From: a virus
Length of the DNA stretch: 64,000 nucleotides
Reading direction: 5' to 3' (one strand)
Virus record (IMG/VR): IMGVR_UViG_3300017917_000400
Coordinates: 1-64,000 of that record
Of this stretch, positions 1,112 through 25,635 are shown piece by piece; position 1 is the first letter of the stretch, and every line of letters starts with the position of its first letter. A program made the position numbers and the translations under genes. The notes under the pieces are model-generated. The model saw nothing but the letters and a program-made list of their open reading frames with translations. It ran no database searches and was not told the origin of the DNA.

Positions 1112-2719
1112 ATGCCAAGATTAAGCCTTTACCGTCCTGAAAAGGGCGCAGATTACAAGTTTTTTGACCGTACAGTCTACGAGATGTTTCAAGTAGGCGG
1201 TGTTGACGTCTATGTACACAAATACATGGGCACAGACGACGGAACTACAGTCAAAGATCATACACAAATTCAGGATCTGCTGTTCCTAGAAAACAGAGAT
1301 CGCAAATACAGTCAGGACATTTACACTATTCGCGGGCATTATCAGACTCAAGATATTGATTTTAATTTAAGCCAATTTGGTTTATTTCTAAGCAACGACA
1401 CAATTTTTATGACTATACATATTAATAACAGTGTAGATTTACTGGGTCGTAAAATTATGCCCGGCGATGTTATAGAATTGCCTAACTTAAAAGACGAATA
1501 TGCAGCCAACGACTATGCTACAGCACTAAAAAGATTCTACGTTGTAGAAGATGTAAATCGTGCCGCAGAAGGATTTTCAGCAACTTGGTATCCACATTTA
1601 TATCGTGTAAAATTAAAGAGCATTGTTGATAGTCAAGAATACAAGGACATATTAGATCGTCCTACAGAAATTGACAACTATGCTGGAGATTATGATCCCA
1701 CAGTAACTTATTATCCCGGTCAAATTGTAAAATACCAAGGCGTACTCTACGAAGTTACACAAGAAATCACAGGCAACGAACCTGGTGTAACAGAAACTAG
1801 TATAGAACCAACAGTCACAGACGACTGGCAAAGTTATTATGCCGTTAGTACCACAGATACTCTTAGAGATCTAATGAGTACCTACGAAAAAGAAAAATCT
1901 ATAAACGACGCAGTAGTAGCAGAAGCAGAAGCAGATGCTAAGAAAAGTGGTTATGAAACTAGTCATTTTTACACAGTTAAAGTTGATGAAACTGGATCAG
2001 GAACTGTCGATCTTACCTTAGTAACCTATGATCAAGATACATCTGTAGATACATCTGTAGATTCTAGTCCATTGCCATTGCGAGATGGGTATTCGGGATA
2101 TTTGTTAGGTGACGGTATAGCACCTAACGGACCAATAGTAGATGTTGATGACATCACTATTCCAGAAGGGCAAGTTGATGCTCAATTTGGTTTTGGTATT
2201 CAATTTCCCAGTACTGCGTATTCTGGAGATATGTTCCTAAGAACAGATTTTTTACCCAATCGTATGTTTAGATTTGACGGACGCCGCTGGGTCAAACAAG
2301 AAGATAATGTACGCATGACTATGACCAACACAGACGATCGTCAAACACAGAAAACTGGATTTATCAATAACACACAAAAATCAGGAATTCGTCAACTGGC
2401 TGCCGACATCATCTACGTTGATCTATTAGGTGATCCAATTTGGGAAAGCGGCAGTATTACGCAAAATCTAGAATTAACAGCGACATCTGCTGTAGTTACT
2501 ACAAATGTTCCTTATAATAAAGATTATCTAGTTGAAGTTTGGCTTGACGAACAAAGCAAAGCCACAAAAATTACAATGTCAAATTTCAGCGGCGCCATAC
2601 AATTTACAATAGGACATCCTATTGCAGATAACAGTGTAATTAGATACACTATCTATGACAAAGTAGTAGCACAAAGACAGAGTCTAAGCAAGGCTCTTAG
2701 ACCACAGGCGGACAACTAA
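1112..2719 (+). CDS. gp14: Neck protein gp14
   Basis: A 535-residue homologue of T4 gp14, which with gp13 forms the neck that closes the head after packaging and joins it to the tail. The match is in the N-terminal ~190 residues: VGGVDVYVHKY, FGLFLSNDTIFMTIHINN, GRKIMPGDVIELP and a C-terminal PHLYRVKLKSI strand correspond to the T4 order of motifs. It is twice the T4 length (256 aa). The extra part contains a short YYPGQIVKYQGVLYEV module like the carbohydrate-binding-type modules of the giant fibres, and a C-terminal domain around FRFDGRRWVKQEDNVRMTM. I chose ATG 1112 over the upstream TTG 1043 because the longer form overlaps the opposing gene and the promoter. Its TAA overlaps the ATG of gene 15 (TAATG). 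Confidence 0.85.
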   Translation: MPRLSLYRPEKGADYKFFDRTVYEMFQVGGVDVYVHKYMGTDDGTTVKDHTQIQDLLFLENRDRKYSQDIYTIRGHYQTQDIDFNLSQFGLFLSNDTIFMTIHINNSVDLLGRKIMPGDVIELPNLKDEYAANDYATALKRFYVVEDVNRAAEGFSATWYPHLYRVKLKSIVDSQEYKDILDRPTEIDNYAGDYDPTVTYYPGQIVKYQGVLYEVTQEITGNEPGVTETSIEPTVTDDWQSYYAVSTTDTLRDLMSTYEKEKSINDAVVAEAEADAKKSGYETSHFYTVKVDETGSGTVDLTLVTYDQDTSVDTSVDSSPLPLRDGYSGYLLGDGIAPNGPIVDVDDITIPEGQVDAQFGFGIQFPSTAYSGDMFLRTDFLPNRMFRFDGRRWVKQEDNVRMTMTNTDDRQTQKTGFINNTQKSGIRQLAADIIYVDLLGDPIWESGSITQNLELTATSAVVTTNVPYNKDYLVEVWLDEQSKATKITMSNFSGAIQFTIGHPIADNSVIRYTIYDKVVAQRQSLSKALRPQADN

Positions 2720-4149
2720 TGCAATATTTCTATGACGGTCAAATAAGACGATACATTGGTCAAGTAATTCGTATGTTAAGCGGATTTAAATATCAAGCCG
2801 CCGACGGGACTCAGCGCACAGTTCCTGTAATGTACGGTGACATGACTCGACAAGTTGGTAGTATTATCAAAGACAATTCTGAAAATAAAATTCCATCTGC
2901 ACCTAGAATAGCCGTGTATGTTACAGGCTTGGCTATGGATAAAACTCGATTAGGGGATGCTACTTTTGTTAGCAAAGTTCATATTCGTGAGCGAGAGTTT
3001 AACGAAAATACTGGAGAATACACTACCAAGCAAGGTAACAATTATACAGTTGAACGATTAATGCCAACGCCGTATAAATTAACATTAAAAGCAGATATAT
3101 GGACTACTAATACTGACATGAAATTACAGATCATGGAACAGATATTGATGTTGTTTAATCCAAGTTTAGAAATACAAACCACAGATAATTTTATCGACTG
3201 GACTAGTTTAAGTGTTGTTGACCTAACTGATATAACTTTTAGCAGTCGTAGTATTCCTGTGGGCAACGAAACTGAAATTGATATTGGTACATTAACATTT
3301 GAAACTCCTATATGGATTAGTCCGCCAACAAAGGTTAAAAAATTAGGAGTAGTTACTGATGTGTTAATGAATATTTTTGACGCAACAGGTAATGTTACTC
3401 CAGAGTTTGCCAACGGTAAACCTACTGCTACTGAATATAACAATGCTGGCGGATATGGATTATTAGTTTATAATAATAAACTAAGTCTACTTAAAGGCAG
3501 AGAACCTATTGCAGTAGATGATGCCAGTGATACAGTGTTTACTAAAATAGGCGATGACATTAGTTGGAACTATATTTTTGAACAGTATCCTGGAAAATTT
3601 AGAACTGGTGTTAGTCAGGTATTTTTGATTCAAGACACTGGCAATCAAGTGGTTGGTACACTCAGCGAAGACCAAGACGACAGTACTATTTTGCATGTTA
3701 ACTGGGATCAGGACACGTTTCCAACTAACACGCTGATAGCCAACGATGCAAATACTGTGCTAAGAGGAACAGTAGATGCTATTGTTGATCCTACTAGATT
3801 TAATCCCAGACCAAGATTGCCAGGCGGCGGCCTAGATTGGCCAGATGTAAGCAACGGCCCAATTAGATATATTATACTAGAGAGCATCGGAGATGAAGTA
3901 AACAATGACGGCCCTGATGGTTGGAAAAATCTCAGCGGTACAGATTTTTATGCTAAAGCAAATAGTATCATCGAGTGGGCTGGAACTCATTGGGAGGTGG
4001 TATTAGATCCCGATGATCCAGAGTTGATAGATACACCGGTTTATATTACTAATTTAAGAACCGGGATACAATACAAGTTTTTTGAAGGATCTTGGACTAA
4101 ATCTTTTGAAGGCGAGTATCCTAAAGGCACTTGGCGCTTAATTTTCTAA
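2719..4149 (+). CDS. gp15: Tail sheath stabilizer and completion protein gp15
   Basis: A 476-residue homologue of T4 gp15, the hexameric terminator that caps the tail tube and sheath and binds the neck. Supporting motifs are the start MQYFYDGQIRRYIGQVIRM (T4: YFYNSSFRRYATLM), RTVPVMYGDMTRQVGSII, PTPYKLTLKADIWTTNTDMK followed by LQIMEQILMLFNPSLEIQ, and FETPIWISPPTKVKKLG; these follow the T4 order over residues ~1-215. T4 gp15 is 272 residues, so about 200 C-terminal residues are extra, ending in repeated W/F/Y-rich turns (YKFFEGSWTKSFEGEYPKGT). It is translationally coupled to gene 14 and is followed 13 bases later by the accessory cassette. Confidence 0.88.
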   Translation: MQYFYDGQIRRYIGQVIRMLSGFKYQAADGTQRTVPVMYGDMTRQVGSIIKDNSENKIPSAPRIAVYVTGLAMDKTRLGDATFVSKVHIREREFNENTGEYTTKQGNNYTVERLMPTPYKLTLKADIWTTNTDMKLQIMEQILMLFNPSLEIQTTDNFIDWTSLSVVDLTDITFSSRSIPVGNETEIDIGTLTFETPIWISPPTKVKKLGVVTDVLMNIFDATGNVTPEFANGKPTATEYNNAGGYGLLVYNNKLSLLKGREPIAVDDASDTVFTKIGDDISWNYIFEQYPGKFRTGVSQVFLIQDTGNQVVGTLSEDQDDSTILHVNWDQDTFPTNTLIANDANTVLRGTVDAIVDPTRFNPRPRLPGGGLDWPDVSNGPIRYIILESIGDEVNNDGPDGWKNLSGTDFYAKANSIIEWAGTHWEVVLDPDDPELIDTPVYITNLRTGIQYKFFEGSWTKSFEGEYPKGTWRLIF

Positions 4150-4162
4150 AATAAGTAAGTGC

Positions 4163-4597
4163 ATGAAAGAACAGATTATCTGCTCTGGCGCACTTTTTTA
4201 TGCCAAATCAACCCGACGATTTTTATTGCTACAAAAAGCCAGTGGCAAGCATGCCAACACCTGGGGACTAGTAGGTGGTACAAACATCGAAGGAGAAACT
4301 GCGTGGCAGGGTCTTCAAAGAGAAATTGAAGAAGAAATTGGTTTTATTCCTCAGATTATTAAAACTATCCCCATTGAAAGTTTTGTCAGCAATGACAGTG
4401 TGTTTAACTTTCACACTTATCTTTGTGTAATTGAAGATGAGTTTATTCCAAAATTAAGCGATGAACACAATGGTTGGGCTTGGGCTAACGTTGATTCTGC
4501 ACCTAAACCCTTACACCAGGGTCTGCGCAGTAGTTTTAGTAACAAGATATTACGCACAAAATTGCAGACAGAATTTGATATTGTAGATTTAATATGA
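4163..4597 (+). CDS. Nudix hydrolase
   Basis: A 144-residue single-domain Nudix protein. Nudix enzymes hydrolyse nucleoside diphosphates linked to another group, using Mg2+ bound by the Nudix box. The complete box G-x5-E-x7-REUxEExGU is present as GTNIEGETAWQGLQ followed by REIEEEIGF at about residues 39-61, so it should be active. The N-terminus IICSGALFYAKSTRRFLLLQK and the WGLVGG lead-in are typical of MutT/NTP-pyrophosphohydrolase relatives. The substrate cannot be told from sequence; dNTPs, nucleotide sugars or ADP-ribose derivatives are all possible. It starts 13 bases after gene 15 and overlaps the next gene by 4 bases (ATGA), so it belongs to the same late transcript. Confidence 0.9.
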   Translation: MKEQIICSGALFYAKSTRRFLLLQKASGKHANTWGLVGGTNIEGETAWQGLQREIEEEIGFIPQIIKTIPIESFVSNDSVFNFHTYLCVIEDEFIPKLSDEHNGWAWANVDSAPKPLHQGLRSSFSNKILRTKLQTEFDIVDLI

Positions 4598-5181
4598 CAC
4601 CCAATCTTATAGTAATAGACAATTTTTTTGAAGATCCGGATGCTGTAAGAAACTTTGCATTAAGTGTTCCCTATGATTTTGTAGCCAACTATCCGGGTAT
4701 GCGAACCAGGGGAGTACATGAAGTACAAAGTTTAGAATTAAAAACAAAATTTGAAAAAATTCTAAACATGCCTATTACTAGATGGGATATCTTTGATGGC
4801 GATAGTGAAAAACAAATGAATACCTGTTATCAATTGTGTTTAGAACAAGACACTACATGGGTGCATCACGATTTTACACAATGGGCGGCTATAATTTATC
4901 TAACTCCTAATGCTGATCCAGACAGCGGCACTGGTCTGTTTATGCATAAGGAAACCGGAGTTACTGAATGGGAAAAGAATGATCCAAAAACAGAATTTAA
5001 CAGAACTGCCGACATGTATGATTTAGATAAATGGCAGTTGACCGCCGAAGTAAAAAACAAATATAATCGTATGATACTTTACAAAGCCAATCAATATCAC
5101 AGAAGTATGAAACCCGGCTTTGGCAATAATTATATCACAGGAAGATTAACGCAGGTGTTTTTCTTTAATACGCATGAATAA
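4594..5181 (+). CDS. Fe(II)/2-oxoglutarate-type oxygenase, DUF6445-like (copy 1)
   Basis: A 195-residue cupin-like protein. Seen in sequence: HHD at 91-93 (the HxD of a facial triad), a distal His169 in YKANQYHRSM, and Arg184 in ITGRLTQVFFF, 15 residues further on, where this superfamily binds 2-oxoglutarate. The strand pattern WVHHDFTQWAAIIYLTP followed by GTGLFMHKETG resembles family DUF6445, recalled from memory rather than searched. The expected reaction is hydroxylation or a related oxidation with O2 and 2-oxoglutarate; the substrate is unknown. The next gene is a clear paralogue of the same length with every triad residue at the same position, so this is a recent tandem duplication. It overlaps the Nudix gene by 4 bases and its own copy by 8 bases. 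Confidence 0.75.
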   Translation: MTPNLIVIDNFFEDPDAVRNFALSVPYDFVANYPGMRTRGVHEVQSLELKTKFEKILNMPITRWDIFDGDSEKQMNTCYQLCLEQDTTWVHHDFTQWAAIIYLTPNADPDSGTGLFMHKETGVTEWEKNDPKTEFNRTADMYDLDKWQLTAEVKNKYNRMILYKANQYHRSMKPGFGNNYITGRLTQVFFFNTHE

Positions 5182-5758
5182 AGATATCATTGTTATTAAT
5201 AATTTCTACGACGATCCCTGGGCTATTAGAGAACAGGCATTAGAGATGGCTCCGTTTCCTATTGTCAACGAGTTGCCTGGACAAAGGACTTTTGGTATAC
5301 CAGAAGAACAAAGCCTAGAATTAAAACAACAATTTGAAAAAATCTTAGGTGTTAATATAACCGAGTGGAGTTTATTTAAAAAAAGAAATGAAAAAAACAA
5401 CACTGCGTTTCAATTGATCACTGAACAAAATACTAGTTGGATTCATCACGATGATACCGACTGGGCCGGCGTCTTATATCTTACACCAGAGCCTGATATA
5501 ACCAGCGGTACTGGATTCTTTACGCATAAGCAGAGCGGTATATTTGAATGGGATCCAAGTAATCCTACTACTGACTTTAATTTACACGAAGATAGATTTG
5601 ATTTTTCTAAGTGGGATTGTAATTTAGAAGTAAAAAATCAGTTTAACAGATTAGTGCTGTACAATAGCAGATTGTATCACAGTAGCATGAAACCGGGATT
5701 TGGTGTAAATTACATGAACGGTCGTTTAACTCAGGTATTTTTCTTTTTTACATCATGA
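5174..5758 (+). CDS. Fe(II)/2-oxoglutarate-type oxygenase, DUF6445-like (copy 2)
   Basis: A 194-residue paralogue of the preceding protein. The triad HHD 91-93, His169 (YNSRLYHSSMKPGFG) and Arg184 (MNGRLTQVFFF) are all kept at identical positions, so both copies look catalytically competent. They differ mostly in residues 60-80 and 125-150, the segments likely to flank the active-site mouth, which suggests different substrates or sites rather than dosage. The start ATG at 5174 lies within the end of copy 1, and the end overlaps the next oxygenase by 4 bases (ATGA). Confidence 0.75.
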   Translation: MNKDIIVINNFYDDPWAIREQALEMAPFPIVNELPGQRTFGIPEEQSLELKQQFEKILGVNITEWSLFKKRNEKNNTAFQLITEQNTSWIHHDDTDWAGVLYLTPEPDITSGTGFFTHKQSGIFEWDPSNPTTDFNLHEDRFDFSKWDCNLEVKNQFNRLVLYNSRLYHSSMKPGFGVNYMNGRLTQVFFFFTS

Positions 5759-6447
5759 TAAAACATTTTAACAATCTAATTTCTAATTTTTATTTAGAAG
5801 ATATACAGGATACTGTATTCAGTGCCGACTATACATGGGTGCGACACAACGAAACTGCTGGCGGTTATAATGGAAATTATGCATGGATCGAAGATGAAAA
5901 TACCGAGGAATGTGATCTGTTTACTCACAAGCCATCAAGAAATCCCAATGATAGATCTATAAACTTTGAACCGCTAATTTACACAATTTCTGATTTAATG
6001 GGCTACAAAATAGAAGTTGACAGAATTAAAACTAATCTAATGTTACCACAATTAAAAAATAAAATCAATGGATACAACAGACCTCATATTGATTTTCCTG
6101 ACAAGGGTATGAAAACGTTATTATTATACTTGAATGATGCGGACGGAGATACTTTTATGTTTGATAAGATTTATACAGGAGAAGATCCTGGAAAATTATC
6201 AGTAATTGAGCGTGTTACTCCTAAAGCAAATTCTGCTATTCTGTTTGATAGCGACAGATATCATGCTAGTTCTATCCCAACACAGGGTAAAAGATCCGTT
6301 ATCAACGTAGTATTTTGGGACGGAAATGCAAAGAAAAACTATCAAGACGAACAAGAAAAAAACATCAACTTACCTTTTGAGCCGCTACCTAACGCATTTC
6401 TTGGCACTGGTCACATAAAAAGTTTTTTCAACAAAGAACAAAAATAA
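5755..6447 (+). CDS. 2OG-Fe(II) oxygenase family protein (type 2, copy 1)
   Basis: A 230-residue protein of a second oxygenase type common in marine myoviruses. Visible features are His111-Ile-Asp113 in YNRPHIDFPDKG, His170 in FDSDRYHASS, and Arg180 in TQGKRSVINVVFW, giving the HxD...H...R order of Fe(II)/2OG dioxygenases of the prolyl-4-hydroxylase-like group. The strand KTLLLYLNDADGDTFMFD and the turn TPKANSAILFDS are family hallmarks. N-terminal 60 residues include YAWIEDENTEE, which is repeated almost exactly in the next gene. The substrate is unknown; prolyl-hydroxylase-like enzymes can act on proteins, but small molecules are not excluded. Confidence 0.82.
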   Translation: MIKHFNNLISNFYLEDIQDTVFSADYTWVRHNETAGGYNGNYAWIEDENTEECDLFTHKPSRNPNDRSINFEPLIYTISDLMGYKIEVDRIKTNLMLPQLKNKINGYNRPHIDFPDKGMKTLLLYLNDADGDTFMFDKIYTGEDPGKLSVIERVTPKANSAILFDSDRYHASSIPTQGKRSVINVVFWDGNAKKNYQDEQEKNINLPFEPLPNAFLGTGHIKSFFNKEQK

Positions 6448-6491
6448 CTTCAGATCTGTAGTTTTAAAGAATTTTTTAGCATAATTACAGT

Positions 6492-7151
6492 ATGATTCAA
6501 TATATTGAAAATTTTGCTTCTGGATTCCTTCAAAAAGATATTCAAAAAGAAATATTATCGTCACCCCATTGGTTATGGCAATATAGAACCGAAACATCTG
6601 GTCAATATGATGCTCCCGACTTTGCATGGATTGAAGACGAAAACACAAAAGATACCCCCCAACTTATTCATGTAGTTGATGACGGGTCAAAAGATATGCA
6701 AATTATAAGTCCATTGATTTATAAAATTGCAGAGACTGTGGGCTACGAATTACAGTTCCAAAGAATCAAAGCCAACTTATTATGGCCAGACGCTGAAAGA
6801 AAAAATCTAAATTCTTATCACAGACCACATGCAGATCATGGAAGAATCGATGCAAAATCTTTAATTTATTATGTTAATGACAGCGACGGCGACACAGTAA
6901 TTTTTAAAAATCGTTGGACTGGTGAAGACCCCGGAACGTTGGAAATTGCTCAGCGCATTACACCAAAGGCAGGGTCAGCAGTGTTATTTGACAGTACACT
7001 TTATCATGCTAGTTCTAGTCCAACCACAGGAGTGCGTTCTGTGTTAAATTTTATTTTTTGGCCTAAACAAATAGATCCGCTGGATCCGGATGGTCTTGCA
7101 CCGCCAATACCAATTAATATACCAATAGGAAAAGGATTTAATAGAATATGA
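6492..7151 (+). CDS. 2OG-Fe(II) oxygenase family protein (type 2, copy 2)
   Basis: A 219-residue paralogue of the preceding gene: FAWIEDENTKD, YHRPHADHG (His113-x-Asp115), YYVNDSDGDTVIF, TPKAGSAVLFDS, LYHASSSPTTG (His172) and VRSVLNFIFW (Arg182) line up throughout. The metal triad and the presumed 2-oxoglutarate Arg are intact. It is the only cassette member preceded by a real gap (44 bases after the previous stop); I see no convincing late or sigma70 promoter in that gap. It overlaps the halogenase by 4 bases (ATGA). Function beyond the family is not known. Confidence 0.82.
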   Translation: MIQYIENFASGFLQKDIQKEILSSPHWLWQYRTETSGQYDAPDFAWIEDENTKDTPQLIHVVDDGSKDMQIISPLIYKIAETVGYELQFQRIKANLLWPDAERKNLNSYHRPHADHGRIDAKSLIYYVNDSDGDTVIFKNRWTGEDPGTLEIAQRITPKAGSAVLFDSTLYHASSSPTTGVRSVLNFIFWPKQIDPLDPDGLAPPIPINIPIGKGFNRI

Positions 7152-8602
7152 AAGTTAAAAGCGTAGGCATCGTTGGCGGTGGCACAGGTGGACTAGTCAC
7201 TGCCCTACTATTAAAGAATTTTTTTCCGTTTTTAAAAGTAGATTTAATAGAATCAAAAGCCATAGGAATCGTAGGCGTCGGTGAAGGATCAACAGAGCAT
7301 TGGGCAAAATTTATGCGCCAGTGTAACATTGATCTAGCAGAATTAGTCAGAGAAACAGATGCAACTTTTAAGTATGGCATTAATTTTGCTAACTGGAACG
7401 GCGACGGGCGTAGTTACATTCAGTCAGTTAATGCAGAAATGAATGCTAACGGACCAACTGGAATTAAATTTGTATATGCAAATCTAATTCAAAGAGGAGT
7501 TGATCCTTTGCATTTAACTAGACCCTATGTTATTAAAAGTGAATTAAGAGAACACAATTATAATATTAATCAGATGCATTTTAACACATTTAAATTAAAT
7601 GAATATTTGCATAAAAAGTGCGAACTTGCAGGCATTGGCTTGATCGAAGCAGAACTAAATGAAGTTCCATTAGATGAAAACGGGTTTATTAAATCTTTAA
7701 AAACTAAAGATGGTCGCACATTTGAATATGATTTTTATGTAGACAGTACCGGCTTTTCAAGATTTATTCTAAACAAGACCATGGGTATTCCATGGAAGAG
7801 CTATTCAAAATATTTGCCGATGAATAGTGCTATTGCATTTCCAACAGAACGTCTCGAAGAAATTCCAGCATGGACTCTTTCACGGGCTATGAAATCTGGA
7901 TGGCTATGGCGTATCCCCACTCAAGAAAGATTTGGCAACGGTTATGTATTCAACGATCAATTTTTAGACTTTGAAGGCGCAAAAAAAGAAGTTGAAGAAC
8001 TGTACGGACACCCTGTTGAAGTTGCAAAACAAATTAAATTTGATGCAGGATGTTTAGAAAAGTCTTGGCATAAAAATTGTTGTGCTATTGGACTTAGCAG
8101 TAGTTTTATAGAACCACTAGAAGCCAGCAGTATTGGTACTAGTATTCAGCAAGCAATTATCTTATGTGAAGTTTTGCCAGACTATGTTCCTGGATATACT
8201 ATGTCTGAACGTATTTTTAATCGACACAGCGATGAAATTTTAGAAAATATTCTGGACTTTGTTGCACTACATTATATCACAAAACGAAACGATACAGAAT
8301 TTTGGAAAAGTACTAAAGAAATACCTAGACCGCCCGGGCTAGAAGAAATGTTAGAAATTTACAAACACAAATTTCCAACCGATCACGACTTTGATAATAA
8401 GCGAGTACTATTCCAAGGTGCAAATTGGATTATTGTTATGCACGGTTTGGGCTTGTTAGATCCTAAAATTGCTGAACAAGAAATACAAAAATTGCCAGAT
8501 TTACTAAAAAATAATATCGATGCACACATGCCTCCTCATTTTACAGATGGCATGATTAGCCATAGACAGGCCATTAATAATCTGTTAAAATTAACAGGAT
8601 GA
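7148..8602 (+). CDS. Flavin-dependent (tryptophan-type) halogenase
   Basis: A 484-residue member of the FADH2-dependent halogenase family, which makes HOCl/HOBr-type species and delivers them through a catalytic lysine. Seen: the N-terminal FAD motif GGGTGG (residues 10-15, GxGxxG); GVGEGSTEHW (43-52); Lys75 in ATFKYGINFANW, aligned with catalytic K79 of PrnA; DSTGFSR (199-205); the family signature WLWRIP (252-257, W.W.IP); and Glu325 in SSFIEPLEASSIG, matching the PrnA E346 segment. All key positions are kept, so activity is expected. A cyanophage relative, VirX1, has been reported as a broad-substrate iodinase. A separate flavin reductase is normally needed and none is visible here, so the host would have to supply it. 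Coupled by ATGA overlaps on both sides. Confidence 0.92.
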   Translation: MKVKSVGIVGGGTGGLVTALLLKNFFPFLKVDLIESKAIGIVGVGEGSTEHWAKFMRQCNIDLAELVRETDATFKYGINFANWNGDGRSYIQSVNAEMNANGPTGIKFVYANLIQRGVDPLHLTRPYVIKSELREHNYNINQMHFNTFKLNEYLHKKCELAGIGLIEAELNEVPLDENGFIKSLKTKDGRTFEYDFYVDSTGFSRFILNKTMGIPWKSYSKYLPMNSAIAFPTERLEEIPAWTLSRAMKSGWLWRIPTQERFGNGYVFNDQFLDFEGAKKEVEELYGHPVEVAKQIKFDAGCLEKSWHKNCCAIGLSSSFIEPLEASSIGTSIQQAIILCEVLPDYVPGYTMSERIFNRHSDEILENILDFVALHYITKRNDTEFWKSTKEIPRPPGLEEMLEIYKHKFPTDHDFDNKRVLFQGANWIIVMHGLGLLDPKIAEQEIQKLPDLLKNNIDAHMPPHFTDGMISHRQAINNLLKLTG

Positions 8603-9303
8603 TATTTTTTAAAAAACCCACAGTCCAATTAGATTGTTTTATTACAAATAATTCTATTGCCGAATTATTTCCAATCTCACATTTAAACGAAAAACTGCCG
8701 GCATGGTGGAAGTCTATGCCTAAGACAGTGCCATCTCCAAACTTTCCTATAGAGATGAGTACTATTAAACGCTGTCCAGGATTTAAAGATCTTTTTAAAA
8801 ATGCACTGTGCGTGCCTGCATGGAGTGAATATCAACTATTTCAAGATCCTAATTTTGGGCTTAGTCACACGGCTCCTAATAGTTTGGCTTCCGGTAATCA
8901 ACATCAACCTGGACAGATGGAGGGAGCATTTCCAGGATATCAGCATTTTAAATTAATTGCACCCTGGGTTATTCAAGAAAAAACTGGTGTACAATTTATA
9001 ATGACACAGGCCAGTTGGCACGATTCAAACCCTTGCGGATTTCATATTCCTGTTGGTTCATTAGAATTTAAATACCAACACTCGGTTCACATCAATCTTA
9101 TTGCGCCAAAAACTGAAGAATTAAAACAATTTAATATACCCGCAGGTCAACCTTTGGTATATCTAATTCCGTTAACTGATAAAAAAATTAAGATAAACAT
9201 ACAAGTTGTAAGTGATGCAGAGTTTAATAAATTTAGAACATATCATCATAGTTTTTACAATAGTTACGAACTAACTAAAAAGATATTAAAGGAAAAAGAA
9301 TGA
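8599..9303 (+). CDS. Conserved protein of unknown function beside the halogenase
   Basis: A 234-residue protein I cannot assign firmly. It is aromatic-rich, with LPAWWKSMPKTVP near residues 34-46, TIKRCPGFKDLF and LCVPAWSEYQ, followed by two beta-rich segments (GVQFIMTQASWHDSNPCGFH and HSVHINLIAPKTEEL) and an IPAGQPLVYLIPLTDKKIKI strand pair. This pattern loosely recalls DUF6065 proteins, an unverified impression. No membrane segment or signal peptide is seen. There are several His and Cys, but no HxD...H triad. It overlaps the halogenase by 4 bases upstream and the next oxygenase by 4 bases downstream, which ties its role to theirs, perhaps as a substrate-binding or accessory subunit. Confidence 0.6.
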   Translation: MIFFKKPTVQLDCFITNNSIAELFPISHLNEKLPAWWKSMPKTVPSPNFPIEMSTIKRCPGFKDLFKNALCVPAWSEYQLFQDPNFGLSHTAPNSLASGNQHQPGQMEGAFPGYQHFKLIAPWVIQEKTGVQFIMTQASWHDSNPCGFHIPVGSLEFKYQHSVHINLIAPKTEELKQFNIPAGQPLVYLIPLTDKKIKINIQVVSDAEFNKFRTYHHSFYNSYELTKKILKEKE

Positions 9304-10004
9304 GTCATCAAGAAGATTATAAAGCCAAAAAAACAGAAGATGAAAATTACGAAGTTCATCCAATATTTCCTATTCCTGTGTATACACGAGAGAATTTTAT
9401 AAAAGATGGCGAGTTTCCAATATTAGATGAAATTGTCAATACTCCCAGAGGACCAACATTTGATTCTAATAGTCTGTATGGTGACCGTAGTGAAAATACT
9501 TACATTTTAAATCAACCCGGTATGTGGGGATTAAAACACAAATTAAACAAATATGTTAATGAATATGCTAATTGTGTATTAGGTCTAGCCGGCGAATACA
9601 CAATTAGCCAAAGTTGGTTGTCTGTTAAAACACCGGGTCAAAAACATATAATGCATACACATGGAAATTCTATTATATCTGGAACATTTTATTTTAATAA
9701 CAAGGATGACGCAGAAGGATTAACATTTATGAAAACAGAGGTATCTAATACCTATCAAATGGTTCCTTTAAAAAATCCTAATGTAAATAATCAGTTTTCG
9801 TTTAATGAAGTAACATTAAAAGTTGAAAATTATATGTTGTGTTTATTTCCTAGTTATCTTGCTCATAAAGTTCAAGGAAATAATACTAAAAACGATAGAT
9901 ATTGTCTGGCCTTTAATGCTGTGCCCAAATATGCGCTAGGAGTAGACACTGAACTAACCGAGTTAGAATTTAAAAGAATTGACAGAGATGCCGATGAGAT
10001 TTGA
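9300..10004 (+). CDS. Putative 2OG-Fe(II) oxygenase (TIGR02466-like)
   Basis: A 234-residue protein with the layout of the TIGR02466 phage oxygenase group. It starts with an HPIFPIPVYTRENF strand and a GLKHKLNKYVNEYANCVLG helix. Then come the core WLSVKTPGQKHIMHTHGNS, ISGTFYFN, a long insertion, PSYLAHKVQG and Arg200 in NDRYCLAFNAVP. Candidate ligands are His119/His121 and His189, with Arg200 for 2-oxoglutarate. The usual HxD is replaced by HTH-G-N here, so the metal site differs from that of the two preceding oxygenase types and activity is less certain. It overlaps the unknown gene upstream (ATGA) and the next gene downstream. Confidence 0.7.
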   Translation: MSHQEDYKAKKTEDENYEVHPIFPIPVYTRENFIKDGEFPILDEIVNTPRGPTFDSNSLYGDRSENTYILNQPGMWGLKHKLNKYVNEYANCVLGLAGEYTISQSWLSVKTPGQKHIMHTHGNSIISGTFYFNNKDDAEGLTFMKTEVSNTYQMVPLKNPNVNNQFSFNEVTLKVENYMLCLFPSYLAHKVQGNNTKNDRYCLAFNAVPKYALGVDTELTELEFKRIDRDADEI

Positions 10005-10578
10005 TTTATGGTTCCCTACAGCAATACTATATGATACGGTAGAAAATGCCGACGATCTAAATAAAAAATTGCTGGAGAGAATTGAAGAAATTAGAAATAC
10101 AATTCCAGCCGGTGGAAGAAATTGGTTGGGGAAACCTTACAATACCTGCGGAACATTAGACATTTCAAAAGATCCTAGTTTTGAAATTATAGTAAAAGAA
10201 ATATCTAAACGTGTACATCATTATGCTAATCGGTTAGGTATAGATACTGCTCGACATCGATTTACTGCCGAAGATGGTTGGTTGAACATTTATAAACAGA
10301 GCGATTTTCAAGAATATCATCACCATGCTACATATCAGTTTTCTGCTGTATATTATGTAAAAGTTCCAGAAAATAGCAGTGAGATTATTTTTGAAAGTCC
10401 AGCACCGCCTGATATGAATCCGTTACCTATTACACTACATAGTCATTTAACAGATCAGCGGGCTCGCTATCCCGTTAAAGCAGGGGATATTGTAATATTT
10501 AGAAGCAACATTAGACACTGTGTTCCTGCACACCAAGGCACAGATGAGAGAATTAGTCTAGCGTTTAATTTTAAATGA
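9988..10578 (+). CDS. Putative 2OG-Fe(II) oxygenase (TIGR02466-like)
   Basis: About 196 residues from ATG 9988; a second ATG at 9994 is also possible, and the upstream TTG at 9979 is less likely. Core motifs are LNIYKQSDFQEYHHHATYQ then FSAVYYVKVP, KAGDIVIFRSNIRHCVPAHQ and DERISLAFNFK. Likely ligands are a His of the 111-113 triplet and His177, with Arg188 for 2-oxoglutarate. As in other TIGR02466-like phage proteins, the classical Asp of HxD is not obvious. It is related in layout to the preceding gene but clearly diverged, an older duplication than the other two pairs. It overlaps the preceding gene by 17 bases and sits one base before the carbamoyltransferase start. Confidence 0.75.
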   Translation: MPMRFDLWFPTAILYDTVENADDLNKKLLERIEEIRNTIPAGGRNWLGKPYNTCGTLDISKDPSFEIIVKEISKRVHHYANRLGIDTARHRFTAEDGWLNIYKQSDFQEYHHHATYQFSAVYYVKVPENSSEIIFESPAPPDMNPLPITLHSHLTDQRARYPVKAGDIVIFRSNIRHCVPAHQGTDERISLAFNFK

Positions 10579-10579
10579 T

Positions 10580-12073
10580 ATGAAATTTCTAGGCCTTAGA
10601 CTGTGCGATCATGATTCAAATATAACATATACCGACGGTGTTAATGTTAGGTATATAAAGTCTGAGCGAATTCATCAGATAAAACATCACGGTTATAATA
10701 ATTTTGATGGATACATTGAAGATATTAAAAACTGGAATATTAATTTCGATGAACTAGATGCAGTGGCCATTTGTGTTGATCAGCACAAACTAAATTTTGA
10801 AAAACAAGATGTTTTGTGGCAACTGGCTCCTAATTTTTTGCCTGGCATAACTTGTCCTATTTACATAATTGATCATCACTATGCACATTCATTGAGTTGC
10901 TGGCCTGTTGTTGATGTGGACACAGTCGATACTGCGTTTGTATTCGATGGTGTTGGTGATTTTCAAATTACCAATTCTATTTTTAAAAAAGACGAACGAA
11001 TTTCTAAATCAAACGTTTCAGGTGTTGGCGTATTGCTGTCAATGTGGGGAAACTTTATAGGAATAGAAGGCCATCCGCTAGATGTTAGTGGAAAAGTTAT
11101 GGCGCTAAAGTCTTACGGAAAAGTTAATAAAGAATTTCTTGATAAATTTTCAAATCTAGATATACTAGACGCTTCAAAAGTATTCTATCTTCAAAATTGG
11201 ATACCGTATCTTAGAGCAGATTCGAGTAGCCTCGAAGGAATTAAACCAGGAAGTCTAGATTGGATTGCATCTATACACCAATGGATTGAAGATAAAATTC
11301 CTGAGTATTTTTTAAAGTTTGCAAATCCTAACGATGTAATCACATTTTCGGGCGGTGTTGCACAAAACATTTGTGTAAACAGTCGTCTTAAAAAAGTTTT
11401 TAAAAACTTACACATTATTCCACATAATCCCGACGACGGATTGTCATTAGGGTGTGTAGAATTTCTGCGAAGAAAATTTAATCAACCAAAATTTAACAAT
11501 GATAATTTTCCGTTTTGGCAAGATGAAACAAGTCCTGACATTCCTAGTAACGAAACAATTGAAAAAATTGCAGAGTATCTTGCTGAAGGAAAAATTGTTG
11601 GGTGGTTTCAGGGACAAGGAGAGATTGGTCCAAGAGCATTGGGCAACAGATCAATTCTAATGCGACCAGATATTCCTAATGGAAAAGATATTATTAATAA
11701 AAGAGTAAAATTTAGAGAAAGTTATAGACCGTTTGGTTGTAGTGTTTTAGAAAATAAAACACAAGAATATTTTGAGTGTGATTATTCTAGTCCTTATATG
11801 TTGTATGCTGTTCCAGTAAAAGACCATTTGCTTTTAGAATCTATTACACACGTAGACGGAACTAGCAGAATACAAACAGTTAACGATTCTCAACCTGTAT
11901 TTTTTAATTTGTTGTCCAAATTTTACGAAAAAACTGGATTGCCTGTTTTGTTAAACACATCTTTAAACGTCAATAAAAAACCCATTGCGTCAACTAGTGA
12001 ACATGCAATGGGTGTTTTTGAAACTACAGAATTAGATGTGCTCTGTATTGGAAATAAAATTATTGTTAAATAA
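10580..12073 (+). CDS. Carbamoyltransferase (NodU/CmcH/TobZ family)
   Basis: A 497-residue two-domain protein. In this family the C-terminal YrdC-like domain makes carbamoyl-AMP from carbamoyl phosphate and ATP, and the N-terminal Kae1-like domain moves the carbamoyl group onto a hydroxyl of an acceptor. Seen: the metal motif HHYAH (99-103), FDGVGD (122-127), FSGGVAQNICVNSRL (256-270), PHNPDDGLSLG, and the C-terminal-domain signature QGEIGPRALGNRSIL (346-360) with PVLLNTSLNVN near the end. Length is slightly below typical members (about 550-600). The acceptor is unknown. As oxygenases upstream could create hydroxyls, a hydroxylate-then-carbamoylate order is an attractive inference. It ends convergently, overlapping the opposing gene by 8 bases. 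Confidence 0.9.
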   Translation: MKFLGLRLCDHDSNITYTDGVNVRYIKSERIHQIKHHGYNNFDGYIEDIKNWNINFDELDAVAICVDQHKLNFEKQDVLWQLAPNFLPGITCPIYIIDHHYAHSLSCWPVVDVDTVDTAFVFDGVGDFQITNSIFKKDERISKSNVSGVGVLLSMWGNFIGIEGHPLDVSGKVMALKSYGKVNKEFLDKFSNLDILDASKVFYLQNWIPYLRADSSSLEGIKPGSLDWIASIHQWIEDKIPEYFLKFANPNDVITFSGGVAQNICVNSRLKKVFKNLHIIPHNPDDGLSLGCVEFLRRKFNQPKFNNDNFPFWQDETSPDIPSNETIEKIAEYLAEGKIVGWFQGQGEIGPRALGNRSILMRPDIPNGKDIINKRVKFRESYRPFGCSVLENKTQEYFECDYSSPYMLYAVPVKDHLLLESITHVDGTSRIQTVNDSQPVFFNLLSKFYEKTGLPVLLNTSLNVNKKPIASTSEHAMGVFETTELDVLCIGNKIIVK

Positions 12074-12569
12074 TTTCTGGTGGCGTGTAAGGGTATGTCT
12101 TAGAAGGCAAACTAATATCTGGGTTTTGCATTATAGTAAAATCTGGAAATGCTCCCTTTAATGTACCTAATGCAGATCCTCTCCAAGGTAATGAGGGATC
12201 CTGTTTAGGAAATTGCTCTTTAATTGCCTTAACATCGTCATACATTGGTTGAATTTTTGGGATTAATCCATCATCCATTGCATGCCATAATGCGTCTAAC
12301 TGAGATTCTAAAGTAGGATATGCTGTTTTTCTCAGCATCTTATATTTGACTTTTTCATCCCACTCTGTTTGTATTTGATTTAAGTAAGACTCAACTTCTT
12401 CTTTAGTTGGTGGAACCCAGTCAGAATCTTCTGGATGTTGCCATACAACATGCTCATAATCATATTCTCCCGTTTCTGGGTTTTGATCGCTTCTAAAACA
12501 CGCACCTGGACACATTAAAGCAAGTGCTTCAATAAGTTGCGGTCTTGTTACAAATGAAAATCCTGGCAT
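12066..12569 (-). CDS. Conserved phage protein, XkdW-like C-terminal motif
   Basis: A 167-residue protein at the downstream end of the leftward fibre operon. The segment YPTLESQLDALWHAMDDGLI followed by PMYDDVKAIKEQFP is a recurring phage motif (XkdW-like region) often found in tail-fibre-associated or assembly proteins. The N-terminal 60 residues include GACFRSDQNPETGEYDYEHV. Position last after three fibre-tip genes fits a fibre assembly or attachment role, as T4 gp38-like proteins do, but sequence similarity to gp38 is not seen. A CGGAGA Shine-Dalgarno and a possible late promoter (AATAAATA) sit upstream. Confidence 0.6.
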   Translation of the reverse strand: MPGFSFVTRPQLIEALALMCPGACFRSDQNPETGEYDYEHVVWQHPEDSDWVPPTKEEVESYLNQIQTEWDEKVKYKMLRKTAYPTLESQLDALWHAMDDGLIPKIQPMYDDVKAIKEQFPKQDPSLPWRGSALGTLKGAFPDFTIMQNPDISLPSKTYPYTPPEII

Positions 12570-12590: not shown

Positions 12591-12598
12591 TATTTATT
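12591..12598 (-). promoter_or_regulatory. Candidate late promoter
   Basis: AATAAATA on the minus strand, 22 bases before the ATG at 12569. The spacing matches that of the GATAAATA box before the 3154-residue protein. It overlaps the stop-codon region of the preceding fibre-tip gene, so chance occurrence in AT-rich DNA cannot be excluded. Confidence 0.4.
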
Positions 12599-13250
12599 GT
12601 CTAATTTCTGTGATTCTTCCAAAACAGACACCATTTTCGTGATTGTTTTGTCCGCCTGAACCAGTAATACGGTTCATATTAAATGTTCGTGTACCGCCAT
12701 CGGTACTAGCAAATGCTGGTTCGTAATAAATTGCCGATGTAGTGGCTGGGAAATCATAGAATAAAATCTTTACTGATTTTGGTGTACTATTGTTGTCTGG
12801 ATCATACCATGCGGCATTAATAAAACTATGATTATTTCTACCGCTGTTGTTATTGTATCCGCCACTGCCAAAGTCTACTGATCCGTTACGTGCTACACGA
12901 ACACCCGCATCGTGGTTGTTTGGTTCGCCGTGTATAAACCACTCGCAGATAATAAGACTGTTTGAATACTGTGGTGTTATGTTTAGTCTTAATACTGTGG
13001 CAAGATTTCCTGGATAACTAGTTGGCATACTATATTGTGGTCGTGGGTCATATCGAATAACTGATGTTTGGATTACCGCACCGGTATAATTCATATTAGC
13101 GCGACCGATTGCACCGTCGGCTATAGAAGCATTTGTAATTCCCAGAGCAGATAAACTAGAATTGGGTAAACTATTTAAAGATGCTCCGGATCCACTTAGG
13201 GTAGTAGCCGAAACACTACCATTAATTGTTGTTCCTTGTAACTGTGCCAT
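12594..13250 (-). CDS. Fibre-tip-like protein, paralogue 3 of 3
   Basis: A 218-residue protein, the last of three tandem paralogues. All share a start of the MATLQ..S.NG type, then a GSG-rich collar, an A(V)LQT..IRYDPRP block, ITPQYSNSLIICEWFIHGEP, and the same C-terminal end NNHENGV.FGRITEIRQ. Central loops differ, including DFGSGGYNNNSGRNNHSF. The architecture of short N-terminal attachment, conserved jelly-roll-like frame and variable loops is what receptor-binding tips look like; function is inferred from that and from position after an S74 fibre gene. An AAGGATAAAGG ribosome binding site precedes it, 9 bases after the previous gene. Confidence 0.65.
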   Translation of the reverse strand: MAQLQGTTINGSVSATTLSGSGASLNSLPNSSLSALGITNASIADGAIGRANMNYTGAVIQTSVIRYDPRPQYSMPTSYPGNLATVLRLNITPQYSNSLIICEWFIHGEPNNHDAGVRVARNGSVDFGSGGYNNNSGRNNHSFINAAWYDPDNNSTPKSVKILFYDFPATTSAIYYEPAFASTDGGTRTFNMNRITGSGGQNNHENGVCFGRITEIRQ

Positions 13251-13259
13251 CCTTTATCC

Positions 13260-13931
13260 TTATTGTCTAATCTCTGTAATTCGGCCAAAACTTACACCAT
13301 TTTCATGGTTAACTTGTCCCGAACTTCCTACTGTTCTATTAAGGAAGAATGTTCTAGTACCGCCATCGTTGCTACCGTACACAGGATCATATGTTCTAGT
13401 AGCAGTGCTTCCTGGAACATCATAATATGTTAGTAAAGAACATGTTGGTGTAGAACCTTGATCCTGGTCGTAAAATGTATCTCCTAATAGATATGAGTGA
13501 CTGTTTTGACCTACGTTACTATTATATGTTGGGTATGATCCACCTACTAGGTTACCACTGTTAATAGAAACAAACCAACCCGAATCGTGGTTGCCTGCTT
13601 CGCCGTGTATCCACCACTCGCAGACAATTAAACTATTAGAATATTGTGGAGTGATAGTAAGTCTTAGTTCTTGTATTCTTGTTCCGCCGGTGGTGCCGTT
13701 AGTTGGTCCGCTGTATGTTGGTCTAGGATCATATCTAATTACGTTTGTTTGTAAAACTGCGCCAGCAAAATTTAATTTGCCTCTTGTTACTGCATTAGCG
13801 TTGAATTGAGCATTTGCTAATGTATTGCCGTTAAGATTTGACGAGGTTAAACTAGTTACCCCGTTGCCGTTTCCGCTGAACGTAGTAGCAGATAGTGTAC
13901 CCGAAACCGACGATCCTTGTAGTGTTGCCAT
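13260..13931 (-). CDS. Fibre-tip-like protein, paralogue 2 of 3
   Basis: A 223-residue paralogue of its neighbours. Conserved frame: VLQTNVIRYDPRPTYSGPT, LRLTITPQYSNSLIVCEWWI with HGEAGNHDSGW, GGTRTFFLNRTVGSSGQ and NHENGVSFGRITEIRQ. The variable part (residues ~95-165) differs from the other two in the NLVGGSYPTYNSNVGQNSHS stretch. Spacing to both neighbours is 9 bases. No catalytic motif is seen. Confidence 0.65.
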   Translation of the reverse strand: MATLQGSSVSGTLSATTFSGNGNGVTSLTSSNLNGNTLANAQFNANAVTRGKLNFAGAVLQTNVIRYDPRPTYSGPTNGTTGGTRIQELRLTITPQYSNSLIVCEWWIHGEAGNHDSGWFVSINSGNLVGGSYPTYNSNVGQNSHSYLLGDTFYDQDQGSTPTCSLLTYYDVPGSTATRTYDPVYGSNDGGTRTFFLNRTVGSSGQVNHENGVSFGRITEIRQ

Positions 13932-13940
13932 CTTCTATCC

Positions 13941-14600
13941 TTATTGTCTAATCTCTGTAATGCGTCCCCAACTTACACCGTTTTCGTGGTTGTTTTGACC
14001 GCCACTGCTAATTGGTCTATTTTGAAAATATGTTCTTGTATTACCGTCATTGCTGCCTACCTGCGGGTCATAAAAGACCGAAGAGGTAGTTCCTGGAAAA
14101 TCATAAAACAAGAAACTAGGTGATTGCGGTGTTGAGCTATCGTCCGAGTCGTACCACTCTGAGTTGATATAACTGTGATTGTTGTTTCCGGTATCTGTAT
14201 TGTGTCCCGCATAGGTTCCGGTTAATAAAGAACCGTTTCGAGCTACTCTAAATCCACAGTCATGACTGCCTGCTTCGCCGTGCAATCTCCACTCACAGAT
14301 AATAAGACTGTTTGAATAAGTTGGGGTAATAGTTAAACGCATACTTGACACCAGTGTGCCGTTGCCAGTGGGTGCGCTCCATCCTGGTCTAGGATCATAG
14401 CGTATTAGGATAGTCTGTAATACTGCACCAGCATAGCCCATTTTTGTACGACCAATTGTATTGTCTGCAATTTTATCGTTGGTTATTGCACCGCCAACAA
14501 AGGCTGTTCCTGGAATACTGCTTAAACTACCACCAGAACCGCTGATAGTTCCTGTAACTGTTAATGTTCCGTTAACTGATGTTGCTTGCAGTGTTGCCAT
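13941..14600 (-). CDS. Fibre-tip-like protein, paralogue 1 of 3
   Basis: A 219-residue protein, first of the tandem set in transcription order and 2 bases after the S74-type fibre gene. It shows the same frame: VLQTILIRYDPRPGWSAPT, MRLTITPTYSNSLIICEWRL with HGEAGSHDCGFRVARNGS, GNTRTYFQNRPISSGGQ and NHENGVSWGRITEIRQ. Shared RVARNGS with paralogue 3 but not paralogue 2 hints at segmental exchange between copies. Probable receptor-binding tip or fibre-decorating protein; the ligand is unknown. Confidence 0.65.
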   Translation of the reverse strand: MATLQATSVNGTLTVTGTISGSGGSLSSIPGTAFVGGAITNDKIADNTIGRTKMGYAGAVLQTILIRYDPRPGWSAPTGNGTLVSSMRLTITPTYSNSLIICEWRLHGEAGSHDCGFRVARNGSLLTGTYAGHNTDTGNNNHSYINSEWYDSDDSSTPQSPSFLFYDFPGTTSSVFYDPQVGSNDGNTRTYFQNRPISSGGQNNHENGVSWGRITEIRQ

Positions 14601-16123: not shown

Positions 16124-19100
16124 TTATCTTTGCATAAAGAATCCAAGTGCAACGGGAGCCCCGTCAATGCCACCTGTAAAATTCATTCTACTTGTAACGC
16201 TAATACCTTCGCCTGTTGTAGTACTTATGCTGTTTCCAGCAATATATATTACACCGGATGTCAGTGTATTTACGTTTAGAGCACTTTGTCCTCCACCAAT
16301 CTGTGCAGTGATATATGCTCTAATTGCTCGTTGTGTTGGCACAACGTTATCGCTATCAGCAGTAAAGAACGGATCTGTACTAAACTGCGTGATAATTGCA
16401 CTGTCAATTCCTAATTCAATTGAGCCTAATTGCAAACTATTCAAACCGCTTAGGTTAAACGCTGAAGCATTTAATGTAGCAGTACCAGTTGCCTGTTGAA
16501 CTCCGAACAAGTTACCAACGTTGAAGTTACCGTCTTGGTCAGTACTTGTAAAGAATACTCGTCCACCATTAGTAAACAGTTCTTGATTAGCCTGTATTGC
16601 TGTTGTGATATCCACATTTGGATAGTTTGTTTGTGTTTGATTACCAGTACCAATGTATAGATAATCGTGACCAGTTAAACGAACCTGTGAATATTTCAAT
16701 CTTGTTGTGATTAAATCTCCGTGTCTCGGAGCATTTAATGTTGTTAGGCTTGGATTGATCTGGAATGTTGCTTTATATGTTCCTTGATTATCTCCATCCT
16801 CAACATAGTTTGTTACTGCAACAAGTTTATAGTATTCGCCAGGAATATTTGCAAACTCTACGTTTGCACCTGCTGTAGGTTCTTCACTTAGTCCAGACAC
16901 GTTAACAAAAGTGCTGACTTGATATAGATCACTATAGCCATCGCCCACTGTATCACTTGTAGCAGTAGCATTGTCTGCACCTCTATTACTGAAACTTGGA
17001 TTACCTAATGCACCGTCACCTAAACGTACACGGAATGCCGCAGTTTTAACCTTGTTAGGATCTGTTACAGTAAAGATTGGACCTGCACGATAAGTCATTC
17101 CTGTGATGGTTGCTGTTGATAATGTAACAGCGGTTGCACTGTACTGTGTAGCACTTACTTTAAACTGTGTACTTGTAATAGTAGATCCAATTACATAATA
17201 TGTTTGTTCTTCAACTAACCCGCCAGCACTAGTACCAAAGAATTCAACTGGTTGTCCGTCAACTAAGTTAGTTGTATCGTCGACAGTAATCAGATTAGTT
17301 GAAGTAGTTGTAGCACTTACTGTACCATATGGATATCCAGAACCTGGATCTACCATTCTGACTTCAATTACAGTACCGCTGGCCACTTTAACACGACCCA
17401 ATGACTGAGCACCAGTTCTAATACTTGCGCCGATTGTGCCAGAAGTATTAGATACAGCAACCCACAATGGGCGGGAATTAATAGTACCAAATTCTAATGC
17501 CTGCCAGTTACTTGAACTAGGCATTGCTCTTAGAGTCCATGTAATACCATCTGGGCTTGTTGCCGCTGTAGTACCTCCGCTGGCTACTGCAAAGAACAAT
17601 CCTTGACCGTATTTGATCTGTGTCCAAGTAGCACTTGCTGGTAATTGACTTGCACTTAGTACCCATGATAGGCCTTTATCATAACTAACTGCAACGTTTC
17701 TTGTACCAGTTGCGATAGCAACAAATCTTCCGTTACCATATGCAACACTGTTCCATGTTGAACTTGTTGGTAGATTACCGCCTGCGGTCCAACTTGTACC
17801 GTTTGTAGAATATGCTGTAGCCACGTTGCCTGTTGAAATAGCAACAAATGTTCCGTTACCATAGGCTACACCACTGTAAGTTCCTGAACCTAAAGTTGGG
17901 ATTGTTCTTGAGGTCCATAAACTACCTGTTGCACTAGATGCCGCGCTGGCTGTTCCGCCAACTATTACATATACTCCGCCACCGTAGGCAATTCCTGCAA
18001 AATCCGTTGCAGGTAGTGCTGTACCGGCTGTCCATGCGCTGGCTCCGGTAACTCCTGATCGTGTAGTATAGGCATTATTCGAACTGCCGCTGGCGATAGC
18101 AACATATCTTGCTCCGCTATCTAATATAGTAATAGCCGGAACAGATGAATAACCTTGTCCGCTATAGTTAATTGCATAACTGCTGACACCATAATTAGTT
18201 CTTGTTGGTGTGACCACTGCGGTAGTACCGATGAACAATAAGGTTGCTGTACCGTTAGCAGCCGATCCAGATGTATGTGTAGGTCCTGTGGTAGTTAATG
18301 TTCCGCCTGTGGTTGCACGATACCAGTTCTTACGGTTCGGTGTAACAGTGGTATTAGTGTAGTAAATGATATCATTTAATGATACAGAACCTCCACTGCT
18401 CCACGCAGTACCAGTAAACGGATCATCAATAGTGACTGTTGGGTCACTAAAGTAATTTTTACCCCAGTCGTTGGCAATGATATCAGTTACTCGATCTGTG
18501 GCCACGCTCACTGTTGGTGCTACGCTATAGCCTGAACCAGGAACTGTAACAGTTACAGTTGCTATAGCGCCGTTTAGTACTGTACAGGTAGCCACTGCTC
18601 CCGATCCACCGCTAACTGGTGTAAACACAATAACAGGAGGTGTTGTGTAGCCAGCACCGCCGTCGACGATTGTTACTGTAGACACTTGGTCTGCTGTTGG
18701 GTTACCTAGTGTATTAGCAACGCCTAAGTTTGCTGTTAATACGGCACCTCTACCGCCGAATCCGCCAACAACTACTGTAGCCACTGCGGCTTCACCACCA
18801 CCATAAACAACATCTATCCAGGTAGCACTTGTTGGCAATGCTCCGGCATTGGCCCAAGTAGTGCCGTTGGTACTATAAGATGTACTTGTTCCGCCATTGG
18901 CTATGGCAACATATTTTCCATCACCAAATGTAACATCTCTCCAAGTTGCTGTTGCACTTAAAGTTCTTGATGTTGCTGTATATCCAGGTGCAGAATAGTT
19001 AATTCTTGGTTCAATAATATAAGTTGTTGTAAGGTCAAGTATGTTATCAATCGCTGTTCCAGGAACAACATGATCCCACCCAGCAGCCAATATATTCATA

Positions 19101-25588: not shown

Positions 25589-25610
25589 TTAATGCTCCAT
25601 CCGTATATGT

Positions 25611-25618
25611 TATTTATC
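25611..25618 (-). promoter_or_regulatory. Late promoter for the 3154-residue fibre gene
   Basis: GATAAATA on the minus strand, 23 bases before the ATG at 25588 and within the short gap after the upstream giant gene. A GGATGGAG ribosome binding region follows. Same box as at 1084-1104. Confidence 0.6.
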
Positions 25619-25635
25619 TTAGTTTATATTTCCGA

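Follow-up and report, generated by a model that had tools for sequence, protein, structure and literature searches.

The locus described here raises the question of what a phage does with a flavin-dependent halogenase. Halogenases are widespread in phages: they were found in 20 of 153 cyanophages (PMC10452541), PrnA has been reported in phage (PMC3037559), and VirX1, which is studied as a biocatalyst, prefers iodide (PMC8407142, where the mechanism of the family is also partly described). On the native substrate of phage halogenases, the portions of PMC2984593, PMC9964418 and PMC7824862 available to us offer proposals only. We analyzed a window consisting of the first 64,000 nucleotides of the 104,075-base IMG/VR record IMGVR_UViG_3300017917_000400, a virus whose portal protein has matches in 2488 phage records, none of which reaches 60% identity. 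The record carries one halogenase. Because phage halogenases have already been published, that gene alone is an ordinary, new member of a known family; the interesting part is instead its partnership with a protein of predicted dUTPase fold, here called p8599, inside a tail-side oxygenase island. A conserved partner and a constant place near tail-fiber genes bear on the role of phage halogenases, which they reduce to two questions: what effect the partner has on activity, and whether the tail fibers of the virion carry halogen.

The halogenase gene is one of ten coding sequences that follow one another on the plus strand (4163-12073), a run with many stop/start overlaps, including ATGA overlaps at both ends of the halogenase gene (7148-7151 and 8599-8602). 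The run and its tail-gene surroundings are as follows:

2719-4149, plus strand: tail sheath or sheath stabilizer (PHROG 11196 and 227), the upstream boundary of the island
4163-4597, plus strand: Nudix hydrolase (PF00293, 4e-16)
4594-5181, plus strand: DUF6445 protein (PF20043) with an HxD...H...R motif, 2OG-Fe oxygenase-like
5174-5758, plus strand: second DUF6445 protein (Pfam) with an HxD...H...R motif
5755-6447, plus strand: 2OG-Fe(II) oxygenase (Pfam 2OG-FeII_Oxy_3)
6492-7151, plus strand: 2OG-Fe(II) oxygenase (Pfam 2OG-FeII_Oxy_3), its stop overlapping the halogenase start
7148-8602, plus strand: flavin-dependent halogenase (PF04820), assigned from Pfam, PHROG and solved relatives, with Lys75 and Glu325 present
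8599-9303, plus strand: p8599, conserved halogenase partner of a predicted dUTPase-fold family (PHROG 7084), dUTPase catalytic motifs absent
9300-10004, plus strand: 2OG-Fe(II) oxygenase (Pfam 2OG-FeII_Oxy_5), its start overlapping the p8599 stop
9979-10578, plus strand: 2OG-Fe(II) oxygenase (profile matches to 2OG-FeII_Oxy_5 and TIGR02466)
10580-12073, plus strand: NodU-type carbamoyltransferase (PF16861, 1.7e-58; PF02543; PHROG 1601)
12066-12569, minus strand: PHROG 9114/1787 protein
12594-14600, minus strand: three ORFs of about 220 aa (12594-13250, 13260-13931 and 13941-14600)
16124-25588, minus strand: 3154-aa tail-type structural protein

Since both DUF6445 proteins carry the HxD...H...R pattern, we count six 2OG-type oxygenases in the window, a number based on Pfam and motif. 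For proteins within 4594-7151 of the window, PHROGs calls the DUF6445 members 'minor coat protein' (phrog_1644) and 2OG-type oxygenases 'DNA endonuclease V' (phrog_274), the latter a name also used in phage records such as those of S-H38 and Sf-FP1. Judging by the HxD...H...R pattern, both annotations appear to be wrong.

Read from the window translation, the ORF at 7148-8602 starts with ATG, is complete and encodes 484 aa. Pfam PF04820 (Trp_halogenase) covers residues 6-438 (profile positions 2-446 of 458; E 2e-100) with a score of 337 bits against a curated cut-off of 21, and the PHROG match is family 2928, 'tryptophan halogenase' (E 6e-103). The top relatives among solved structures are 6y1w (4e-62), 9luq and 6frl, and VirX1 (6qgm) was recovered in the same search at E 8.5e-44. 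The FAD-binding motif GxGxxG reads GGGTGG at residues 10-15, the WxWxIP motif reads W252-L-W254-R-I256-P257, and the catalytic Lys and Glu are K75 and E325, the latter inside FIEPLEASSIGT. Both catalytic residues align with the Lys and Glu of VirX1 and the solved relatives, and both are invariant across 17 closer sequences (in an alignment that includes the window). When 62 viral homologs were aligned to the window protein, Lys was kept in every row reaching the K75 column; in two rows (L051:18732 and L134) Gln takes the place of Glu325, and a few partial rows contain gaps. WxWxIP is retained in the window protein and most relatives. A preliminary description, made from the letters of the window, had proposed a flavin-dependent halogenase with catalytic Lys and Glu and had suggested checking the Lys75 equivalent by alignment; the family assignment, all of the residues it named at their positions, and the Lys in that alignment are borne out. 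On this sequence evidence the ORF is a full-length viral flavin-dependent halogenase.

The same description likened the protein to VirX1, and this holds in part. The two belong to the same superfamily and their catalytic Lys and Glu align, but they are not closely similar, with 29.9% identity over 475 aa. A quickly built maximum-likelihood tree with 127 rows (reduced from 297 at 75% identity; support by SH-aLRT only, root arbitrary) places the window halogenase in a 31-row clade with support of 99 and VirX1 in a separate 33-row clade with support of 100. Given these separate supported clades we rejected the window protein as a VirX1 orthologue, and the identity and the clades together mean that the halide and substrate profile of VirX1 is not transferable to it. 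The halogenases of Synechococcus phage S-H38 (43% identity) and Prochlorococcus phage P-SSM2 (41.5% identity) share its larger clade and have full catalytic motifs. Unlike in the window, no p8599 neighbor was detected in their loci (L002 and L003), and the P-SSM2 gene lies a few kb from nrdA/nrdB. PrnA, RebH and BrvH (6frl) are significant matches from the flavin-dependent halogenase family that differ from the window protein in being bacterial enzymes, and PrnA and RebH, which act on free Trp, score below its best solved relatives.

The preliminary description had also claimed that the gene at 8599 is coupled to the halogenase, and here the relatives go further than the ATGA overlap at 8599-8602. 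We searched viral contigs with the p8599 family alone, using a profile built iteratively from window-seeded matches and no halogenase query, and analyzed 80 of the 153 relatives. A halogenase was present in 76 of these 80 loci, and in 75 it lay directly upstream of p8599 on the same strand with overlapping ORFs; since the loci are related and some are near-copies, these are not 75 independent events. As a control, 80 loci recovered with DUF6445, which were often shorter than the p8599 loci, contained a halogenase once and p8599 never. Across phage records carrying p8599, it lies beside a halogenase in 14 of 15, S-RIM4 being the exception (several were judged from feature names, and NC_028663 enters only as the RefSeq twin of KP211958). 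A scan of the collection with the window p8599 sequence alone gave no confirmed match.

The coupling extends across distant phages. In Cyanophage Syn10, the source of VirX1, a p8599 homolog follows VirX1 immediately (E 2e-76) and is itself followed by 2OG oxygenases, so that the window and Syn10 have in common a halogenase of one superfamily, a downstream partner of predicted dUTPase fold and an array of 2OG oxygenases. They differ in that a second halogenase precedes VirX1 and that VirX1 comes after tail-type ORFs on the same strand. Approached from the other side, 49 loci recovered with the window halogenase contained p8599 in 15 cases and lacked it in 34, counting the DNA within each locus, and thus many halogenase relatives have no partner in their locus DNA. 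Rows paired with p8599 occur in both the window and the VirX1 clades, and the paired label needs eight changes on the tree, seven of them forced by starred branches. By this tree, the pairing would be either ancient and often lost, or regained, and its recurrence or retention suggests function rather than mere linkage. Together, gene order and phylogeny strongly support a conserved halogenase-p8599 partnership, which is more than the coupling first claimed. A literature search by title and abstract opening, with subscription journals thinly covered, found no report of it.

Members of the p8599 family were also found with no halogenase, in S-RIM4, L281, L283, L302 and L303, and in L299 the halogenase is 1.8 kb away. 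The S-RIM4 homolog is close to ribonucleotide reductase genes and a Nudix match directly precedes p8599 in L302. In L281, L283 and L303 the gene setting is different, with neighbors that we take, by eye, to resemble ThyX, QueD-type, KDO-8-P synthase-type, IscS/IscU-type and UV-endonuclease-type proteins. Halogenase loci from bacterial genomes lacked p8599 in 75 of 79 cases and contained it in four (L138, L139, L140 and L159). In L138, L139 and L159, scans of flanking proteins gave some matches to tail or virion families of phages, which suggests that these contigs of metagenome-assembled genomes are prophage or misbinned phage DNA, and the listed ORFs of L140 resemble those of L139. With only four of 79 loci, three of them scanned and phage-like, we rejected a pairing in true bacterial genomes.

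What kind of protein p8599 is was addressed by structure prediction. The model of the window protein itself was poor (pLDDT 52 with 11 sequences). AF2 with 43 sequences gave a confident model of a homolog, L236, which lies behind the twin of VirX1 in syn9 (pLDDT 90.1, pTM 0.83); as the window protein is 16% identical to it in the alignment, the window fold is assigned by homology only. Searched with Foldseek, the L236 model had 18 PDB matches with E of 0.001 or lower, and each of the 50 matches listed is a dUTPase or a dCTP deaminase. The highest Z from VIA-align was 10.2, and 8hrv aligned over 117 residues at 2.6 Å. A profile of the p8599 family searched against PDB sequences found eight matches with E of 1 or below, every one a dUTPase, the best at 0.01, and an earlier 12-sequence profile found two, both Wsv112, named a dUTPase; phmmer of single members against the PDB yielded no useful match. 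The p8599 family is thus predicted to have a dUTPase-like fold, and the S-CREM1 record, in line with this, names its homolog 'triphosphate nucleotidohydrolase'.

Despite the fold predicted in common with dUTPases and dCTP deaminases, the strict catalytic motifs I-V are each found in 0 of 43 family members. Relaxed patterns of motifs III and IV remain in 30 and 38 of the 43, in the window protein Glu replaces the Asp of motif III, and the Pfam dUTPase model at E 0.1 finds none of the members. With strict motifs missing in all 43 members, we rejected p8599 as an active dUTPase. The suggestion that the 8599 product could be a substrate carrier likewise does not stand in the usual sense: the predicted fold is dUTPase-like, and the window protein has neither DS[LI] nor G.[DH]S[LIM], the patterns of the phosphopantetheine serine motif. 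Cys59, Gly183 and Pro185 of the window protein fall in columns invariant across the 43 members and His102 is kept in 38 of 43; C59 and H102 could form a metal site or a catalytic site that has nothing to do with the dUTPase reaction.

The island sits between the tail-sheath gene and tail-fiber genes on the facing strand. The first and third of the three ORFs of about 220 aa scan as tail fiber proteins, while the second (13260-13931) is assigned by similar sequence only. Because they are on the opposite strand, these genes share no operon with the island; relative to its relatives the window is reversed in orientation, with the same tail neighbors on the facing strand. In three relatives tested, the PHROG 1787/9114 family lies between the tail ORFs and the halogenase, just upstream of the latter. 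Defining a Gly-rich ORF as one of at least 150 aa with at least 18% Gly, we counted 172 such ORFs in the 533 kb upstream of p8599, spread over 63 of 80 loci, none downstream in the 547 kb of the same 80 loci, and 20 in the 648 kb of the DUF6445 control loci. Four were scanned, three matching tail-fiber families and one only a family of unknown function. The window tail ORFs of about 220 aa, at 10.6-13.0% Gly, fall below this threshold applied to the relatives. In 10 of 16 long records, a distance of 4.0-4.5 kb (calculated by hand) separates the end of a homolog of the 3154-aa tail protein from the halogenase-p8599 pair downstream of it; of the remaining six, five gave only weak matches and one no match. 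Comparison of the window tail proteins with six Syn10 ORFs upstream of the Syn10 halogenases found no homology. The 3154-aa ORF and an adjacent one of 2623 aa are two giant tail-type ORFs that span 16124-33507 of the window on the minus strand. Related phages keep the halogenase set beside tail-fiber genes, a hint that it may modify the tail fibers themselves.

In flavin-dependent halogenases, a reductase supplies reduced FAD, whose reaction with O2 and halide yields hypohalous acid (HOX). The HOX moves to the Lys, and its delivery to an aromatic substrate is assisted by the Glu. The preliminary description saw no flavin reductase, and this holds for the two families searched, PF01613 and PF03358, neither of which matched in the 104,075-base record, itself possibly a fragment; for this reason the host is the likely source of reductase. 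We hypothesize that the window gene encodes a working two-component halogenase that would take FADH2 from a host flavin reductase and form hypohalous acid, with Lys75 and Glu325 directing halogenation of an electron-rich aromatic group. p8599 would act with the halogenase, most likely as a substrate-binding, presenting or specificity subunit, and the pair, the six 2OG-Fe oxygenases and the carbamoyltransferase would make up a modification island that is expressed late, together with the tail genes. Because the halogenase is repeatedly tied to p8599 and tail genes, we rate tail-fiber protein as the most likely substrate: the phage's own tail-fiber or adhesin proteins, whose side chains would be halogenated and hydroxylated before assembly. 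This late modification of tail-fiber proteins, using flavin reduced by the host, is our best reading, although we infer the substrate and hold the whole tentatively, at somewhat below even confidence. That phages in general carry such a machine, in which a halogenase, a repurposed dUTPase-fold subunit and 2OG hydroxylases halogenate and hydroxylate their own tail-fiber adhesins, is possible and rather doubtful; if true, it would fill in the native role that is missing for VirX1 and its relatives. Against the tail-fiber reading, location in a tail module may reflect only shared late expression or an insertion hot-spot, and some phage halogenases are found elsewhere, as in P-SSM2 near nrdA/nrdB and in the 16 halogenase loci L033-L048, where 180 kb contain no Gly-rich ORF.

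The island could instead produce a small metabolite that is halogenated, hydroxylated and carbamoylated, or decorate host capsule or LPS. The available part of PMC7824862 proposes a metabolite, antibiotic or toxin, or capsule decoration for a ten-gene cluster of carbamoyltransferases, halogenase, 2OG oxygenases and cupins in cyanophage S-SSM6a, and the window has the same combination of halogenase, 2OG oxygenases and carbamoyltransferase (10580-12073). Unlike the window, the cluster has no dUTPase-fold partner named in that part of the source, and the records that the Syn10 partner protein matched do not include S-SSM6a. The carbamoyltransferase profile matches three ORFs across all loci searched, including L007 and L008 (tblastn), whereas p8599 and tail genes are far more widely shared, and no glycosyltransferase, PKS or NRPS was found among the ten island proteins scanned; we consider a metabolite or capsule product unlikely, though well worth keeping in view. 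The predicted fold of p8599, the Nudix gene of the island and the S-RIM4 homolog near ribonucleotide reductase genes would fit a pyrimidine nucleotide or nucleotide-linked substrate, delivered or hydrolyzed by p8599, with the Nudix protein and 2OG oxygenases on the same path. Such a role is improbable given the loss of strict motifs I-V from all 43 members, the Asp to Glu change in motif III of the window protein, the survival of only relaxed motif III and IV patterns and the lack of any Pfam dUTPase match at E 0.1.

Two further alternatives concern the enzyme rather than the island. The protein might keep the fold and residues and yet not be a halogenase in the cell, acting for example as a flavin monooxygenase, since its activity is read from its sequence and only proposals exist for a native substrate. 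The Lys and Glu that are invariant in all 17 closer sequences and the WxWxIP motif of the window and most relatives suggest selection for halogenation chemistry, however, and leave little room for this. Still more improbable is a free-tryptophan halogenase that gives the infected host antibiotic protection, an older published idea for cyanophage prnA. The family name and speculation in PMC9964418 and PMC2984593, as far as their available parts go, speak for it, but the latter itself terms the idea speculative, no recognizable enzyme of a pyrrolnitrin path was found among the other nine island proteins scanned, and the best solved relatives outscore PrnA and RebH.

Literature searches for a halogenase with a TonB-dependent receptor and SapC, or for a prolyl hydroxylase with a tail fiber in cyanophage, found nothing, and one for a tryptophan halogenase with a TonB-dependent receptor found nothing relevant by title. 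A last observation comes from related phages (L017, L018, L020, L023-L025, L028, L029, L050 and L052), in which a single region contains two to four halogenase genes belonging to different clades and the facing strand bears 2OG oxygenases.
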